Under the pieces are notes generated by a model. That model was not told where the DNA came from. It made no database searches and saw only the letters and a list, made by a program, of their open reading frames with translations. Both the position numbers and the translations under genes were made by a program. From Phenylobacterium sp. (GTDB lineage Bacteria; Pseudomonadota; Alphaproteobacteria; Caulobacterales; Caulobacteraceae): a stretch of 64,000 nt of DNA. This document shows positions 6,096-42,210 of this stretch, one piece after another (the first letter of the stretch is position 1; every line of letters begins with the position of its first letter). The stretch spans positions 1 through 64,000 of the forward strand of contig NZ_JAKRSA010000030.1 of the NCBI RefSeq assembly GCF_022402485.1, given 5' to 3'.

Positions 6096-6893
6096 ATGGC
6101 GGCAGATTATGGCATCGCCGGGCATGTGGCGATCGTCACCGGCTCCACCAGCGGCATCGGCTTTGCCATGGCCTCGGCCCTGGCCGAACAGGGGGTCCAT
6201 GTGATCCTCAATGGCCTGGGCGACCCCGCCAGGATCGAGACCGACCGCCGGGAGCTGCAGGCCCGCACCAACGCCTCGATCCGCTATCACGGTGCGGACA
6301 TGACGAGGCCCGACGAGATCGCCGACCTGGTGGACTATGCCCGCCGGGAGTTCGGCCGCCTCGACATCCTGGTCAACAATGCCGGCATCCAGCACGTCTC
6401 CCCCATCGAGGACTTCCCGCCCGAAAAGTGGGACGCCCTGATCGCCATCATCCTGTCCTCAGCCTTCCACGCCACCCGGGCAGCCGTGCCGATCATGAAG
6501 GCCCAAGGGCGCGGCCGGATCGTCAACATCGCCTCGGCCCACGGCCTGGTGGCCTCGCCCTTCAAGTCGGCCTATGTGGCGGCCAAGTTCGGGGTGGTGG
6601 GCCTGACCAAGGCCGTGGGCGTGGAGCTGGCCCGCACCGGCGTCACCTGCAACGCCATCTGCCCGGGCTATGTGAAGACCCCCCTGGTGGAGGCCCAGAT
6701 CGGCGACCAGGCCCGCTCGCGGGGCATTTCCGAAGACCGGGTGGTGGACGAGGTGATCCTGGCCGCCCAGCCCAACAAGGCCTTCGTCGAATACGACCAC
6801 CTGGCCGGTATGCTACTCTACCTTGTCTCCGACATGGGCGCCTCAGCGACAGGGGCGGCGCTGTCGGTGGATGGCGGCTGGACGGCGACCTGA
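6096..6893 (+). CDS. 3-hydroxybutyrate dehydrogenase-like SDR
   Basis: A classical short-chain dehydrogenase of 265 residues with the nucleotide motif TGSTSGIG, NNAG, and catalytic Ser (NIASAHG) plus YVAAK. The 3-hydroxybutyrate dehydrogenase hallmarks are present: CNAICPGYVKTPLVEAQI and the late QPNKAFVEYDHLAGM block. The expected reaction is NAD+-dependent interconversion of 3-hydroxybutyrate and acetoacetate, used in PHB turnover. The ORF track start at 6024 overlaps yaaA. The ATG at 6096 is preceded by CGGAGAGACGGTA and matches homologue starts. No PHB genes are visible nearby. Confidence 0.88.
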   Translation: MAADYGIAGHVAIVTGSTSGIGFAMASALAEQGVHVILNGLGDPARIETDRRELQARTNASIRYHGADMTRPDEIADLVDYARREFGRLDILVNNAGIQHVSPIEDFPPEKWDALIAIILSSAFHATRAAVPIMKAQGRGRIVNIASAHGLVASPFKSAYVAAKFGVVGLTKAVGVELARTGVTCNAICPGYVKTPLVEAQIGDQARSRGISEDRVVDEVILAAQPNKAFVEYDHLAGMLLYLVSDMGASATGAALSVDGGWTAT

Positions 6894-7126
6894 GGTTAGA
6901 GGGCGCGTTGGCCTTGGGAGCCGGGGAGACGCGCGCCGGGGTGGCCTGCCAGTCCGCAGGACGGAGGTTCTGGTTGGCGGCTGGAGCGGCCGTTGGGCTC
7001 GATACCAGATGCGGACCTTGGTGCGTGGGTGGGGAATGTCCCCTCTATGGAGGGCACCGGCAGTCCGGAGGCGACTGAGGCTGCCGAGATCAACCGATTT
7101 CGAGCGCTAAGCTCAGCCCACGCGGA
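6894..7126. other. intergenic stretch at the edge of the accessory patch
   Basis: This 233-base stretch between the hydroxybutyrate dehydrogenase gene and the 244-residue unknown gene keeps the high GC of the chromosome. I see no ORF with plausible coding use, no tRNA cloverleaf and no clear terminator. It is the left boundary of a region whose base composition changes. Confidence 0.5.
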
Positions 7127-7861
7127 TCACCGTCCCCCCTGCTGCGAGTCAAATGGAGTTTCCATCCCAATCTCCCGCAGCAGCATCCGTCCGAGATAGG
7201 ACACCTCGACTGTGTGCTTGAAGTCCCCCTTCCGAGCGTCGAACTCAGGGGTCTCGCCCTTCCGCGGCTGGCTGTAGTTCTTTTTTAGTAAATCCAGGCG
7301 GAGGAGGTGGTCCTTGCCAGCCTCGTAGAGATGACTCTGATCGACAGCTGAAGGCAGCGACCCCATGTGCAGAGGCTCCGGGCGATTGATGCGTTCGAAC
7401 GCCTGTCGGTCTGCCCCAGCATACGCCCGTCCATACGCGTTGAGCAGGTTCACCTCATCGTCGTCCAACTGTCCTAGAATCAATAGGAGCCGCTTCCTCC
7501 GAATGACGTCCGCGTCATCTTCGCTCAACCCCCGGTTCACGGCCTCCACGATATGGTCAATGCGCTCCTTGGAAGTCGCTCGTGCAGACTGGAAGCCTCC
7601 CTCTTCGATTAGATCAATCTTCTCCACGTTTGCCGCCAACCCATCTCTCACCTCCAAGCTGAGCAGGTCGACGCGGGCAGCCAGGGCGCGCAAGTAGGCG
7701 GCAATGCGGTCGGCGCGCTGGCCCGGGATAACCGATCCGACGACTTCGCCGACGAGACCGCCGGCTACCGGGATCGAGCCAGCTATGCCCTTGCCGATGG
7801 CGACTAACTTATCGCGCCACTCTTCGTCGAGCCGGTCACTGTTCGCCCTCGATTCAGTCAC
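7127..7861 (-). CDS. unknown protein with glycine-rich hydrophobic segment
   Basis: I do not recognise a named family. The 244-residue product has a charged N-terminus, then a Gly-rich hydrophobic stretch (about 22-50: GKGIAGSIPVAGGLVGEVV) resembling a glycine zipper, then long amphipathic helices (about 50-150) and a charged C-terminal part. There is no signal peptide. Codon choice is more relaxed than in the neighbours, with many A/T third positions, which suggests recent acquisition. It lies 140 bases downstream of the broken HEPN-like gene on the same strand. A membrane-active or membrane-associated role is possible from the zipper but is only inference. Confidence 0.6.
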   Translation of the reverse strand: MTESRANSDRLDEEWRDKLVAIGKGIAGSIPVAGGLVGEVVGSVIPGQRADRIAAYLRALAARVDLLSLEVRDGLAANVEKIDLIEEGGFQSARATSKERIDHIVEAVNRGLSEDDADVIRRKRLLLILGQLDDDEVNLLNAYGRAYAGADRQAFERINRPEPLHMGSLPSAVDQSHLYEAGKDHLLRLDLLKKNYSQPRKGETPEFDARKGDFKHTVEVSYLGRMLLREIGMETPFDSQQGGR

Positions 7862-8001
7862 ACCTCACGCTCCTGGAATTTCTGGTCGCGGCTACGCTGA
7901 AAGGGGAGGTGCCAGCGCGGACCAGCGCGGCGCGCTTGTCGTAGATGACCGCACCGAACATCGCGGCGCGGTGGAGACTCCCCCTAATCTTGTCTCAGCA
8001 C

Positions 8002-8631
8002 TCATGGGGAGCGACCCGCGGGATGGCTCGGCGGGCGGCTTTCCAGATGCTGCTCCAACGCATCAGTCATGGCGTCGACCAGATGCCTGAACCGGTAGGC
8101 ATCTGCAGGAGTTAGGCCGCCTTGGTGCGCGGCAATATTGCGTAGCTTTCTTAGCTCCCCAAGCATATATGCAACCTCTTTACTCAATATTTCCTTTTGT
8201 TTGAGTCCTTCTATAGTTTTCGACAATGTGCGGGGTCGGTCTTGATTGACGTAGTGCTCGTCATTCAGTTCATCGAGCATCATCTCAATTGGCCCCCACG
8301 AATCGAGGATCGCAGCGTCCGGAGAGATGGCCAGCAGATTTTCGAAGCGACTCTCGCCGGGCGAGGTATATTCTCTTGTAGACTGCACGTTGTCCCGCCG
8401 GGACGCAACTTCGAGTTTGTCGAGTTTGGCGGCGAAGTCTAAGGTCTTGTCCCCCCATGTCAGCTTACTCACCTTTCCGAGCAAGCCTCGCAGTTAAGAT
8501 CGAAACATCAATGCGACAATAACAATCGCGACCGGCCACGCGAGAGAATGGACGATCGACGAAGACCACTGGAGCAGATCCATTGCCTTCTCCGAGGTGG
8601 ATGCTTTCAGTTGAAGGTCAGTAGGATTCAT
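8002..8631 (-). pseudogene. membrane-anchored HEPN-like protein split by an in-frame stop
   Basis: Two ORFs (8494-8694 and 8002-8484) are in the same frame and together read as one protein. The first part ends ...IVIVALMFRS, then a TAA, then LRGLLGKVSKLTWGDKTLDF. One transmembrane helix (about residues 22-44) is followed by a cytosolic domain with LRKLRNIAAH, a Rx4H motif like that of HEPN/DUF4145 domains. A CAA-to-TAA change would explain the break (Ser-Gln-Leu-Arg). The downstream half could still be made from a TTG at 8484, but it would lack the membrane anchor. The intact start is the ATG at 8631. A sequencing error cannot be excluded. Confidence 0.65.
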
Positions 8632-8942
8632 CCGCGCAATCTCTTCGCTAACGCATTGAGGCAAATGACGACAAGCTGCGAAACTTGATCCCAAAGCGGA
8701 GATAGATGAATCGGCGAGGGCGCGAAATCGGGCGAATGAACGTAGCGGTTCATCGTGTCGAAGGAGAAGATGCCATCAGGGCTCCCGGATCTCGGGGACA
8801 GGACATTATACCAATCGCTGCGGTGAAGCGTCTCAACAGCCTAAATCCCATTCTCCGAATCCCAGCCTTGGTACCTGAGCTTGTTTTGAGTACGCTTTTT
8901 GTTCTGGTCAAGCCTGGCCGTGCAACGGGGTTTAGAGAGCGA
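8632..8942. other. divergent intergenic region between the two HEPN-like genes
   Basis: About 310 bases of lower-GC DNA separate the broken HEPN-like gene (- strand) from the MltR-like gene (+ strand). The ORF track extends the + strand gene to 8706, but residues 1-79 of that extension show no family resemblance. Divergent promoters probably lie here. I could not fix a convincing -35/-10 pair. Confidence 0.4.
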
Positions 8943-9515
8943 ATGGTTCGAGGTCAGTCGGGTGGCGGGGCAGAGCTAAAGCGGTTGGCGAAGCGCGTCC
9001 CAGACGGAACGGACTTTCGCGCGCTGCTTGATGGAATTGAGGACCCTGCGCACAGCATCGCGTCACGCGACCGGTACATCGCTATCGTTGCCAGCGGTGC
9101 TGTCGAACATGCTCTCAAATTGGCGATCGAGCGCCACTTGGCAGCCGATCTTACAGAAGGCGAACGTGCAAGCCTCTTTCGGCAGCCGCTAGGAAACTTC
9201 GCAAGCCGTATCACGATGGCGCGTGCGCTCGGGGTGGTGAGCGCTGAGCAAGCGGTGGAGCTCAATCGCATCCGGGATATTCGCAATGCATTCGCGCACA
9301 CGATTGAGGCGCTGAGTTTTGATGCGCCGGAAGTTACCGACCTGCTCGGACGTATGTGGCACTATCCGGTGGCCGACTGGGCAGCTTACTTCGCGCCCGC
9401 CTTTCCGGCGCACCGTCAGTTCCTGATAATCTGTGCTAGCTTCTACGATGAATTGGTCCGGCACCAACTAGACCGAACTCGAGCAACTCCGCGGCGGAAG
9501 AGCGGGGGGCATTGA
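8943..9515 (+). CDS. MltR-like HEPN-fold protein
   Basis: From the ATG at 8943 the product is about 190 residues and mainly helical. It contains DRYIAIVASGAVEHALKLAIERHL followed by LNRIRDIRNAFAH, whose RNAFAH fits the HEPN Rx4H pattern. The arrangement resembles the MltR (mannitol operon repressor) family, which has a HEPN-like four-helix fold. No mannitol genes are near, so a regulatory role in sugar uptake is not supported. A role in a toxin or immunity setting is possible. The upstream 79 codons in the track (from 8706) look non-coding. Codon use differs from housekeeping neighbours. Confidence 0.6.
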   Translation: MVRGQSGGGAELKRLAKRVPDGTDFRALLDGIEDPAHSIASRDRYIAIVASGAVEHALKLAIERHLAADLTEGERASLFRQPLGNFASRITMARALGVVSAEQAVELNRIRDIRNAFAHTIEALSFDAPEVTDLLGRMWHYPVADWAAYFAPAFPAHRQFLIICASFYDELVRHQLDRTRATPRRKSGGH

Positions 9516-9688
9516 AGCATAGCCGCAAGGAGTACATGTTCTCCGCAGGGCACAAATCGAGCGTTCGAAGCACCTATGAGCCCATCTCCGACGCCCCGCC
9601 ATCCCCACCCCCACCCTCGCCCTTGACCTCCCGCCTTCGCCGCGCCTCTCTTCACGCCCAACACGTGTTTGAAAATGAGGAGGACGCC

Positions 9689-10468
9689 GTGGCCTATAAA
9701 CCCTTCGACCTGACTGGAAAGGTGGCCCTGGTCACCGGCGGTAATGGCGGGATCGGCTTTGGCATGGTCGAGGCGATGGCGCAGGCCGGCGCCGACATCG
9801 TCATCTGGGGCTCCAATCCCGACAAGAACCGGGCGGCCGAAGAGAGGCTGAAACCCACCGGCGTGCGGGTGCTGACCCAGGTGGTCAATGTGGCCGACGA
9901 GACCGCGGTGGCTGAAGGCATGAAGGCCGCCGTGGCCAAGATGGGCGCGGTCCATACGGTGGTGGCCAACGCCGGGATCGGCGGCGGAGCGCGGTCGTTT
10001 TCGGAGTTTCCCACCGAGACCTATCGCAAGGTGCTGTCGGTCAATCTGGACGGGGTGTTTTTCACCTTCCGCGAGGCGTGCAAGCACATGGTCGCCCGGG
10101 GCGGGGACGGGCAGGGGGGCTCGCTGGTGGCGATCTCGTCCCTGTCGGCCCTGGACGGGGCGGCGCGCAACCAGGCCTATGCGGCGACCAAGGGGGCCCT
10201 GATCCCCATGGTCCGGGCCATCGCCGTGGAGCATGCGCGATACGGGGTCCGGGCCAATGTGATCCTGCCAGGCTGGATCGCCACCGACATGACGGCGGCG
10301 GCCCAGGACAACGACAAGTTCAATGAGAACGTCATCAAGCGGGTGCCCATGCGCCGCTGGGGCGATCCGGCGGATTTCGGCGGCATGGCGGTCTATCTGG
10401 CTTCGGACGCCTCGCGGTTCCACACCGGCGACTCCTTCCTGATCGACGGCGGCTACGGAATCTTCTGA
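9689..10468 (+). CDS. SDR family oxidoreductase
   Basis: A classical SDR of 259 residues: TGGNGGIG cofactor loop, NAG (VANAGIGGG), catalytic Ser in ISSLSALDG and YAATK, ending in the usual FLIDGGYG. It starts from GTG at 9689, because AGGAGG lies seven bases upstream and the residues before it (from the track start 9512) are Pro/Ser-rich with no family match. The substrate is unknown. Closest in pattern to gluconate/glucose dehydrogenase-like SDRs. It lies just right of the low-GC patch and 36 bases before the palindromic repeat. Confidence 0.85.
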   Translation: MAYKPFDLTGKVALVTGGNGGIGFGMVEAMAQAGADIVIWGSNPDKNRAAEERLKPTGVRVLTQVVNVADETAVAEGMKAAVAKMGAVHTVVANAGIGGGARSFSEFPTETYRKVLSVNLDGVFFTFREACKHMVARGGDGQGGSLVAISSLSALDGAARNQAYAATKGALIPMVRAIAVEHARYGVRANVILPGWIATDMTAAAQDNDKFNENVIKRVPMRRWGDPADFGGMAVYLASDASRFHTGDSFLIDGGYGIF

Positions 10469-30581: not shown

Positions 30582-31193
30582 CTATTTCTGGGCTGCGGCG
30601 ATGGCGGCGTCGATCTCGGCCATGGTCATGGCGCCTTCCTTGGCCACCTTGCCATTGATCATGATCGTCGGGGTCGAGGTGATACGAGCGTCACGCTGGG
30701 TCTTCTCGATCCGGGCGTTGAGCGCGCGCAGGCCCTCTTCATTGGAGATACAGGTCTGGAACTGCTGTTCGGTAAGGCCGGCCGAGCGCGCGACCCGCAG
30801 CAGGGTGCCGCGGACATCGCCTGTGGCGAACATGTCCTGCTGGCTGTGGAAGATGGAGTCGATGACGTTAAAGTACTTGTCCTCGCCGGCGCAGCGGGCC
30901 AGCAGGAAACCGGCTGCGGCCACCTCGGCGGGCGGGGTCAGGAACTCCTTGAAGGTGTAGTGCACCTTGCCGGTGTCGATATATTTTTCCTTCACCCCCG
31001 GGAACACATCCTTGTGGAAGCTGGCGCAGTGGACGCAGCTTAGGGAGGCGTATTCGACCATCTTCACCGGCGCATTGGGGTCGCCCATGGTCATGTCGCC
31101 ATCGGCGGCGGCGGACGATTGACCCGAGCAGGCCCCCAGAAAGAGGGTCGCGGCGGCGACGGCCATCATAAGGCGGCGGCTGAGGTTCGGCAT
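30582..31193 (-). CDS. DsbA-family thioredoxin-fold lipoprotein
   Basis: About 203 residues with a lipoprotein signal (lipobox LGAC, Cys 22) and a thioredoxin fold. The active site is CVHC (53-56) and the cis-Pro loop is TSTPTIMING. It resembles DsbA/BdbD-type thiol oxidoreductases facing the periplasm. The track start at 31214 is seven codons upstream; the inner ATG at 31193 gives a better lipoprotein signal. It lies between dciA and smc on the same strand. Confidence 0.87.
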   Translation of the reverse strand: MPNLSRRLMMAVAAATLFLGACSGQSSAAADGDMTMGDPNAPVKMVEYASLSCVHCASFHKDVFPGVKEKYIDTGKVHYTFKEFLTPPAEVAAAGFLLARCAGEDKYFNVIDSIFHSQQDMFATGDVRGTLLRVARSAGLTEQQFQTCISNEEGLRALNARIEKTQRDARITSTPTIMINGKVAKEGAMTMAEIDAAIAAAQK

Positions 31194-31302
31194 GAAGGTC
31201 GGCCCTTTGGTCATGAGAGTCCGGAAGACAAGTTAAAGCGCGATTCTCTGGGCCTGGCCCATGGCGCCTCTGGATGGCAAGAACCGCCCCGGCGGATCAA
31301 TG

Positions 31303-31943: not shown

Positions 31944-32990
31944 GTGAGCCCTGAACAGATCCGCCGCCGACTTCTTGCCTGGTATGACGCCCATGCCCGG
32001 GACCTGCCGTGGCGTGTCCCGCCGGCTGCGGGCCAGGGCGGGCTGCGCTCTGATCCCTACCGAGTCTGGCTCTCGGAGGTGATGCTGCAGCAGACCACCG
32101 TCCCCCACGCGGCCCCTTACTTCCTGAAGTTCACCGCCCGATGGCCCACCGTTTCGGATCTTGCGGCAGCCCCCGATGACGAGGTGATGGCCGCCTGGGC
32201 CGGGCTTGGCTACTACGCCCGGGCCCGTAACCTGTTAGCCTGCGCCAGGGCGGTGGCCCGCGACCATGGGGGGGTGTTTCCTGGCACGGAAGCGGCCCTG
32301 CGCGCCTTGCCAGGTCTTGGCCCTTACACAGCCGCAGCTGTGGCGGCGATTGCCTTCGATGAGGCGACCAATGTGGTCGATGGCAATGTCGAGCGGGTCA
32401 TGGCCCGGCTGTTTGCCGTGGAGACGCCGCTGCCGGCCGCAAAGCCGGAGCTGAAAGCCTTGGCCGGAGACCTTGTGCGTGAGGATCGACCGGGCGACTG
32501 GGCCCAGGCGCTGATGGACCTGGGGGCTACAATCTGCCGGCCCAAGTCGCCGCTATGTGATCGCTGTCCTGTGACGGAGGCCTGTGCTGGGCACGCCACG
32601 GGGGCTCCGGAAACCTATCCGCGCAAGACGGCCAAGGCTTCCAGGCCGCACCGACATGGGGTGGCCTACATCCTGACCCGCGCCGAAACGGTGGCCCTGG
32701 TGCGCCGGCCACCCAAGGGCTTGTTGGGGGGCATGCTTGGGCTGCCCACCAGCGACTGGCGGGCAGCACCCTGGTCAGATGCCGAGGCGAGGTCGGCGGC
32801 ACCGGTACAGGCCGACTGGCGCAGCGCTGGAGAGGTGGAGCACGTCTTCACGCACTTCTCCCTCACCCTCCGACTGCTGAGGGCTGAAGGGTCGGCGGAC
32901 GGTGTGATCTGGACCGATAGGCGCGATCTGGAGGCCCTGCCCAGCCTATTCCTGAAAGCCGCCCGCGCCGGGCTGTCGAACCTGCTTTAG
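31944..32990 (+). CDS. mutY: A/G-specific adenine glycosylase
   Basis: Removes adenine mispaired with 8-oxoguanine. The catalytic Glu is in SEVMLQQTT, the helix-hairpin-helix is LPGLGPYTAAAVAAIAF followed by the catalytic Asp in VVDGNVERV, and the 4Fe-4S cysteines are in CRPKSPLCDRCPVTEAC. The C-terminal NUDIX-like domain (about 235-348) reads 8-oxoG. It starts with GTG at 31944 and runs toward ccrM; the stop codons are about 8 bases apart. Confidence 0.96.
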   Translation: MSPEQIRRRLLAWYDAHARDLPWRVPPAAGQGGLRSDPYRVWLSEVMLQQTTVPHAAPYFLKFTARWPTVSDLAAAPDDEVMAAWAGLGYYARARNLLACARAVARDHGGVFPGTEAALRALPGLGPYTAAAVAAIAFDEATNVVDGNVERVMARLFAVETPLPAAKPELKALAGDLVREDRPGDWAQALMDLGATICRPKSPLCDRCPVTEACAGHATGAPETYPRKTAKASRPHRHGVAYILTRAETVALVRRPPKGLLGGMLGLPTSDWRAAPWSDAEARSAAPVQADWRSAGEVEHVFTHFSLTLRLLRAEGSADGVIWTDRRDLEALPSLFLKAARAGLSNLL

Positions 32991-32998
32991 GGGGTGCC

Positions 32999-34123
<1,125 letters not shown>

Positions 34124-40878: not shown

Positions 40879-42210
40879 TCAGCTGTTTCCGGGCAGCTTG
40901 CAGCCGCCGGCGATCCCCTTGGCGAAGGCGCAGCCAATGGCTTCCACCGAGCTGATGGGGTCTTGCTTGTACTGGATCATGTAGCCAGCCAGACCGTCGG
41001 CGCAGGCGACCTCGATATAGGCCGATCCGTCGGCGGTCTTGCCCAGGTACCGCTGAGCCGAGACCACGCAGCTGTCGCGGCCGTGCTTCTTCAGGTCAGC
41101 GGTCAGGGTGAGATAGGCGCTGCTTTCGGGGTTCAGGCCGCAGCGATAACCGACAATCGGCGCATAGGCGCAGTTGTGGATGGTGCTCTTATTGAGTTCA
41201 AAGACACCAACGCCGCCCGGCTTGCCGCCTTGGCAGACCAGTTCCACCACGTCCTTGGCGCCCTGAGCCGGGAACACTGCGTACTTTTCAACGTCGCAGT
41301 CGAAGCCAGCGGCCTTGGACAGGCGGGTGTAGAGCGCGGCCTGCTCGGTGGCCGCTTCACGGGCGTCGGTCAGGGTGCAACCGCCGAGGACGCCCAGGGC
41401 GCGGGCGCAGTCCCAGGAGTCCGCCAGCTGACCTGCGGTGCTGACCTTGTAGATGTAACCCTTGCCGTCCTCACAGGCGGCTTCGAAATAGGTGCTGCCA
41501 TCAGTGGTGGCGCCCACAAAGCGGCGTTGGGTGATCGCGCAGCTCTTGGCGTCAGCCGCAGCCATCTGGTCGACGACTTGCAACCGCGAGGCCGCATCGC
41601 CCAGTTCGCAACGGATGTTGGTGTCAGCCTGGTCGTAGATCAGGCAGTTGGTGGCATCGACCGTAGCGTCGGGGGTGGCCGGATTGCTGGTGTTCAGGAT
41701 GTAGCCCGAAGCACCGCCCTCGCAGGCGACTTCGAAGAAGCTGTTGGTCGCGCTGCGGCCAATGAAGCGGCTGTTGATGATGGGGCAGGTGACCCCGTCC
41801 TTGGCGGCGAGCTTGGCCAGTTCGGCCTGGGGGTTCTGGTTGCCGGGCAGCTGGCAGGCCAGGGCTGAAGGCTTGCCGTCTTCGGTGGGGGCCGACGCTT
41901 CAAGACAGGTATAGGCGCTGGTGGCGCCGCCAGCCACGGCCTCGATCGCAAAGCCCATGCCCTCCTGGCAGTCGACCTCGTAATAGGAGGTGGAGGTCTT
42001 GGCCCGGCGGTTCTCGTTCTTGCCGATCAGGCGGGCATCAACGACCTGACAGTTCAAGCCGGCGGCCGCCACCACGGCGGGGGCCTCGGCCATGCCCTGG
42101 GTGCGGGCCTTCTCAGTGACACCGGCGTCGCGGGACTGCGACATCACAGCGGCCGGCGCCAGGGCGACCAGGGCCAGGGCTGCGGCGAGCCCGATTGTCT
42201 TGCGCCTCAT
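40879..42210 (-). CDS. exported protein of five tandem four-cysteine repeats
   Basis: 443 residues with a Sec signal (to about residue 24). The mature part is five repeats of about 76-88 residues, beginning near 52, 140, 222, 303 and 379. Each has exactly four Cys (for example C54, C81, C102, C119 and C381, C403, C427, C437), and 20 cysteines account for all in the protein. The shared pattern is C-x5-10-R-x-(IVL)-G ... (YF)-x-E-(VA)-x-C-x-(DG)-G-x-x-G-(YF), with repeat 4 the most diverged. Probably two disulfides per repeat in the periplasm. No known family recognised. Confidence 0.75.
   Translation of the reverse strand: MRRKTIGLAAALALVALAPAAVMSQSRDAGVTEKARTQGMAEAPAVVAAAGLNCQVVDARLIGKNENRRAKTSTSYYEVDCQEGMGFAIEAVAGGATSAYTCLEASAPTEDGKPSALACQLPGNQNPQAELAKLAAKDGVTCPIINSRFIGRSATNSFFEVACEGGASGYILNTSNPATPDATVDATNCLIYDQADTNIRCELGDAASRLQVVDQMAAADAKSCAITQRRFVGATTDGSTYFEAACEDGKGYIYKVSTAGQLADSWDCARALGVLGGCTLTDAREAATEQAALYTRLSKAAGFDCDVEKYAVFPAQGAKDVVELVCQGGKPGGVGVFELNKSTIHNCAYAPIVGYRCGLNPESSAYLTLTADLKKHGRDSCVVSAQRYLGKTADGSAYIEVACADGLAGYMIQYKQDPISSVEAIGCAFAKGIAGGCKLPGNS

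Follow-up and report, generated by a model that had tools for sequence, protein, structure and literature searches.

A near-universal Caulobacteraceae protein with an export signal, five tandem four-cysteine repeats and no named domain

Results

A 20-cysteine protein with an export signal

The window, a stretch of 64,000 nucleotides from a Phenylobacterium contig, carries on its reverse strand a gene whose 443-residue product contains exactly 20 cysteines, arranged in five repeats (Table 1). The DNA around the gene is GC-rich and long antisense open reading frames overlap it, for example 40963-41868 (+). Despite these, the frame at 40879-42210 is a genuinely translated one, as dN/dS is 0.15-0.23 against relatives 83-88% identical in protein and most of the differences from close relatives sit at codon third positions; together with the conserved length of the product, the dN/dS values rule out a spurious reading frame. 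The original prediction described the protein as exported, which agrees with a conserved N-terminal signal peptide, its basic N-terminus and hydrophobic stretch being kept across the full-length homologues. The protein sequence shows no sign of a lipobox, an anchor, an autotransporter or a C-terminal secretion signal; it contains two histidines and neither CxxC nor CxC motifs.

Table 1. Features of the gene, its product and the more distant neighbours, with positions in the window
Feature	Position	Strand	Details and basis
Gene for five-repeat, 20-cysteine protein with export signal	40879..42210	-	443 aa plus stop; ORF, dN/dS, homologues
Predicted signal peptide, residues 1-24	42139..42210	-	MRRKTIGLAAALALVALAPAAVMS; no lipobox Cys; sequence and conservation
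Repeat 1, residues 32-125	41836..42117	-	Cys 54, 81, 102, 119; Glu 78; helix and four strands predicted
Repeat 2, residues 126-206	41593..41835	-	Cys 142, 163, 189, 201; Glu 160; helix and four strands predicted
Repeat 3, residues 207-283	41362..41592	-	Cys 224, 246, 268, 278; Glu 243; helix and four strands predicted
Repeat 4, residues 284-361	41128..41361	-	Cys 305, 326, 347, 357; Glu 323; most divergent
Repeat 5, residues 362-443	40882..41127	-	Cys 381, 403, 427, 437; Glu 400; single-domain model
CcrM cell-cycle methyltransferase	32999-34087	-	sequence
MutY	31944-32990	+	sequence
DsbA-like thiol-disulfide protein	30582-31214	-	CVHC motif; sequence; about 10 kb from the cysteine-rich gene

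Genomic neighbourhood

In the window, the gene is flanked on one side by a GT9 heptosyltransferase-family gene, an AMP-binding enzyme and a TPP enzyme, and on the other by an enoyl-CoA hydratase and two short-chain dehydrogenases. The syntenic locus comprises an MBL-fold hydrolase, enoyl-CoA hydratase, SDR, TPP enzyme, AMP-binding enzyme, amidohydrolase, heptosyltransferase and the ccrM region. The MBL-fold hydrolase, with domains PF00753 and PF21221 in the two loci tested (L041 and L045), stands next to the gene in divergent orientation in many other genera (eleven loci) and is absent beside the gene in the window and in its closest relatives (L031 and L039). Soluble metabolic enzymes and an LPS-type heptosyltransferase make up the neighbourhood and, since these are mainly cytoplasmic enzymes, the locus points to no function or partner. 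Between 6 and 12 kb from the gene lie CcrM, MutY, RNase HII and a DsbA-like gene, all judged by sequence; the CcrM, MutY and DsbA-like genes are close together, and locus numbers in C. crescentus also suggest closeness.

In C. crescentus, mutY is CC0377 and tag is CC0382 (PMC1839093), while CCNA_00379 (DsbA) and CCNA_00390 (ADP-heptose-LPS heptosyltransferase) are both tabulated as essential (PMC3973325). Going by synteny, the homologue in C. crescentus is expected one or two genes away from CCNA_00390. CCNA_00379 and CCNA_00390 themselves are different genes, and neither CCNA_00375 nor CCNA_00388 is at the distance that synteny predicts. A literature search by the inferred locus tags found no mention of the gene, and no ligand, localisation or phenotype data for the protein were found in the searchable literature.

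Five homologous repeats with regular cysteine spacing

The original prediction of a five-fold tandem repeat with four cysteines in each is exact for the cysteine count, and the spacing ranges it gave (21-27, 21-26 and 10-17) coincide with the measured gaps. For repeats 1 to 5, the gap from the first to the second cysteine (C1-C2) is 27, 21, 22, 21 and 22, that for C2-C3 is 21, 26, 22, 21 and 24, and that for C3-C4 is 17, 12, 10, 10 and 10. In 200,000 random placements of 20 cysteines, this regularity was never matched. In the single sequence, repeats 1, 2, 3 and 5 are strongly alike (z 6-20 in pairwise shuffles), and the similarity of repeat 4 to the others is faint or undetected in most pairings. 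When profiles built from 44 full-length homologues were compared with hhalign, all ten repeat pairs proved homologous (97-99.5% probability), and this homology survives masking of the cysteines to X (88-99%). The tandem repeat therefore stands for all five units.

A shared core was also proposed, consisting of an (IVLF)-G turn, an aromatic-x-E-(VA)-x-C strand and a G-(YF) turn. This holds for repeats 1, 2, 3 and 5 but not for repeat 4, which has FP, VVELVC and GG at these three softer sites. Universal to the five repeats are the four cysteines and the glutamate of E-x-x-C; four cysteines at set spacings and this glutamate define the domain family, and all five repeats carry both.

Invariant cysteines and glutamates

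The cysteine spacing is preserved well beyond close relatives, as all 20 cysteines are invariant in the 44 full-length homologues, which span 21 genera and reach down to 25% identity. The five glutamates of E-x-x-C are invariant in the same 44 proteins and thus as constant as the cysteines, and just one extra cysteine occurs, in one of the 44. At the level of single repeats, the four cysteines are kept in 399/399 complete distinct repeats, the sole member of the 400 without a cysteine being cut by a contig end, and the glutamate is seen in 598/598 aligned domain hits; both sets were picked by a profile containing the cysteine and glutamate positions, which biases them towards conserved repeats. 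Predicted proteins contain 20, 16, 12 or 8 cysteines, tracking the number of domains in the five-, four-, three- and two-repeat forms. Because a cysteine is never lost from a complete repeat, the alignment carries no co-loss signal for disulfide pairing.

Predicted structure of the repeat

In a full-length model (mean pLDDT 78.6, pTM 0.51, 18 aligned sequences), each repeat forms a helix and four strands, the packing of the domains in that model being unreliable. A model of a single repeat, residues 358-443, reached a pLDDT of 86.5 and a pTM of 0.80 with 65 aligned repeats, and its DSSP assignment is H9-18, E26-34, E40-46, E52-58 and E63-69. The domain fold is therefore predicted to be one helix and a four-stranded antiparallel sheet, or beta-meander. 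This confident single-repeat model had no significant match in the PDB (best E 0.6) or among viral-protein structures (best E 0.09).

Within the single-repeat model, C1 lies before strand 1, C2 at the end of strand 2, C3 after strand 4 and C4 in the tail. These positions relative to the strands suggest the pairs C1-C2 and C3-C4, both at one edge of the sheet. The E-x-x-C glutamate lies on strand 2 and probably belongs to the core of the domain, although an invariant glutamate in every domain could instead be functional.

No match to known families

Searches of Pfam, NCBIfam, PHROGs and PDB sequences with the protein, the 44 homologues and the repeat profile gave no meaningful match, and profile searches of the protein and its homologues found no enzyme family. 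The best Pfam score, for the prokaryotic metallothionein PF02069, reached 11 bits where the cut-off is 33 (E 0.52). The best NCBIfam score, for MakCD (NF049870), was 14.7 bits against a cut-off of 110 and extended across 32 residues only; as the match is weak and partial, the reading as a MakCD regulator was rejected. The statement in the original prediction that no named domain has this pattern is upheld both by these searches, including that with the repeat profile, and by the structural comparison of the single repeat. By these comparisons the domain belongs to an unnamed family for which no solved relative was found.

A core gene of the Caulobacteraceae

Homologues are present in 295 of the 299 sampled Caulobacteraceae genomes, covering 22/22 genera, and in 267 of the 268 high-quality genomes of that sample, where one match per genome is the usual state. 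In a first sample, 35 of the 36 genomes of the same genus matched, the genome of origin counted, as against 0/24 genomes drawn from four further families of the order. The full-length profile found no match among 159 genomes of the order outside the Caulobacteraceae, the single-repeat profile found none among 286 further genomes of the class, and a plasmid collection yielded none. Larger single-repeat searches at E up to 0.05 returned two weak hits among genomes of the phylum outside the family and seven among about 300 genomes of the order outside it. These numbers are not above chance and most of the hits proved on inspection to be fragments or nonsense frames, so that there is no convincing relative outside the Caulobacteraceae. 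The gene is a core, lineage-restricted gene of this family.

One of the outside sequences, a 118-residue open reading frame from a sister family (genome G1288, L188 1369-1725 (+), E 0.0036), has four cysteines at the spacing of one repeat and a serine where the invariant glutamate is expected. It is possibly a distant single-domain relative, or a chance match.

Repeat number and history of the array

Most homologues (95 distinct open reading frames) have five repeats. The shorter forms comprise 11 with three repeats, three with four (including L086, truncated by the end of its contig) and single cases with two repeats and with one. The three-repeat forms come from one large genus, g13, in which the domain occurs in 130/131 genomes, mostly in three copies and at most in 14. 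One locus (genome G325, L143) carries three three-repeat paralogues in direct tandem, at 6683-7690, 7979-8977 and 9041-10066 (+).

Position-specific profiles identify the shorter forms as contiguous, ordered subsets of the array: r1-r2-r3, r2-r3-r4-r5, r1-r2 and r1 alone. Mean identity is 39.5% between repeats at the same position in different proteins, as opposed to 25% between different positions within one protein. Together with the ordered subsets, this implies that the array predates the diversification of the Caulobacteraceae, and the position-wise likeness points to distinct constraints on each position with no recent repeat shuffling. In genus g25, repeat 1 has been lost and L085 1357-2481 (+) retains r2-r5 and 16 cysteines, indicating that the array can be truncated at either end. 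The family therefore presents an array of unequal repeats that is held at five in most genera and has been cut to three in one large genus.

Discussion

The protein described here combines an export signal with five homologous repeats, invariant cysteines and glutamates, repeat positions that each have their own character, and retention throughout a bacterial family. We favour, with moderate confidence, a reading in which it represents an unnamed-domain family and acts as a fixed, five-domain, disulfide-locked and non-catalytic envelope scaffold that is likely to bind a partner. Its near-universal presence in the Caulobacteraceae, the invariance of its cysteines and its absence from almost everywhere else suggest that it is probably a core part of the envelope.

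In this model, a type I signal peptide would send the protein across the inner membrane and it would fold in the oxidising periplasm, where each domain of about 75-90 residues would form a helix and a four-stranded antiparallel sheet held together by two disulfides. The C1-C2 disulfide would link the beginning of strand 1 with the end of strand 2, and C3-C4 would pin the tail after strand 4. The five domains would not be interchangeable, each position having its own conserved features and a fixed place in the order, and together they would make up a rigid, elongated scaffold, either periplasmic or at the outer envelope, that binds a fixed partner such as an envelope protein, peptidoglycan or LPS. 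Disulfides, which the original prediction also proposed, find good indirect support. The cysteines are invariant and come in multiples of four across the five-, four-, three- and two-repeat forms, and a cysteine count that follows the domain count fits disulfides; moreover, the genome encodes DsbA and DsbB homologues, making oxidative folding possible.

The original prediction further suggested that the array could bind a surface ligand or polymer. In the adhesin-like form of this idea, the domains would be displayed on or secreted from the cell and would bind polysaccharide or another surface polymer, a role that tandem disulfide domains behind an export signal could fit. Sugar-binding propeller lectins do occur among the whole-protein Foldseek matches, but these are not real superpositions (TM 0.11-0.15, rmsd about 25 A), and none of the anchoring or secretion signals listed above is apparent. 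Adhesins usually vary fast in repeat number and sequence, whereas this gene is conserved and usually single-copy in essentially every Caulobacteraceae species, with five repeats in most. Such near-universal conservation argues for a housekeeping envelope role over that of a niche adhesin, and we regard the adhesin reading as unlikely. The surface-ligand idea more broadly has no specific support, and the data do not distinguish the periplasm from the cell surface.

It is also improbable, and somewhat more so, that the domains guard the envelope against proteases, acting in tandem as cystatin- or BLIP-type inhibitors of an envelope enzyme. Cystatins have a helix followed by four antiparallel strands, the order predicted for our repeat, and the weak matches of the single repeat include single-chain monellin, itself of cystatin-like fold (TMt up to 0.43). 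The likeness stops short of a significant structural match, the Pfam Inhibitor_I69 hit in two homologues (E 0.022) is at chance level, and no inhibitor loop is known for the sequence.

We consider it very unlikely that the cysteines serve redox buffering or metal handling in the periplasm in place of structural disulfides. Twenty invariant cysteines, the weak metallothionein hit (E about 0.5) and the DsbA-like gene in the window could be read in this way, but thiols oxidise in the periplasm, and cysteines spaced at about 21/22/10 do not resemble CxxC metal sites; CxxC and CxC motifs are lacking and histidines are few. Metallothionein-type metal binding was rejected on the wrong spacing and the score far under the cut-off. 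Finally, a closed five-bladed beta-propeller with one blade per repeat is suggested by five repeats of four antiparallel strands and by the propellers that dominate the whole-protein Foldseek list, but is scarcely plausible and was set aside, as those matches reflect local strand order only and do not superpose (TM about 0.10-0.13, rmsd 24-29 A, from a query model with pTM 0.51), every repeat has a helix, and the natural one-, two-, three- and four-repeat forms would be unable to close a five-blade ring as monomers.

Returning to the disulfide-locked envelope scaffold, a bolder version can be proposed, in which the domain is specific to the Caulobacteraceae and has a new fold or topology, and the five-domain, ten-disulfide envelope component is one of the main clients that make oxidative folding indispensable in the family, a reading prompted by the listing of DsbA (CCNA_00379) as essential in C. 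crescentus (PMC3973325). We hold this to be a long shot. An envelope protein this widespread, with all 20 of its cysteines invariant, would be an obvious candidate Dsb client, and this is directly testable in C. crescentus. The main interest of our analysis lies in a protein that is nearly universal in a model bacterial family and apparently unstudied: a core gene of a well-studied group that includes Caulobacter, yet one that falls in no named domain family.

Comparison with known systems places the protein close to several of them and within none. The single-repeat model would share its order of a helix and then four antiparallel strands with the cystatin/monellin-like fold, and monellin variants appear among its weak matches at E above 2 and TM about 0.4; to our knowledge, monellin lacks the four invariant cysteines and the E-x-x-C motif, and it has no sequence match to our repeats. 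BLIP-type proteins are exported and carry small alpha+beta domains in tandem, as does our protein, but BLIP is absent from the best 50 structural matches of the single repeat and the four-cysteine pattern of our repeats is different. PF11396 (BLIP-like) was not detected in the protein or in any of the 44 homologues; proteins of PF11396 are described as periplasmic and as resembling BLIP (PMC2954215). Beta-propeller lectins and nucleoporins have tandem four-stranded meanders in common with our protein, whose repeats differ in their extra helix and variable number (global TM about 0.1, rmsd about 25 A). The likeness to the PF02069 metallothioneins is confined to a cysteine-containing stretch in repeat 5, and their clustered CxC/CxxC motifs are absent from our protein. 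Our protein is probably of an already-known kind, that of exported tandem disulfide-domain proteins, built from a domain family that is as yet unnamed.
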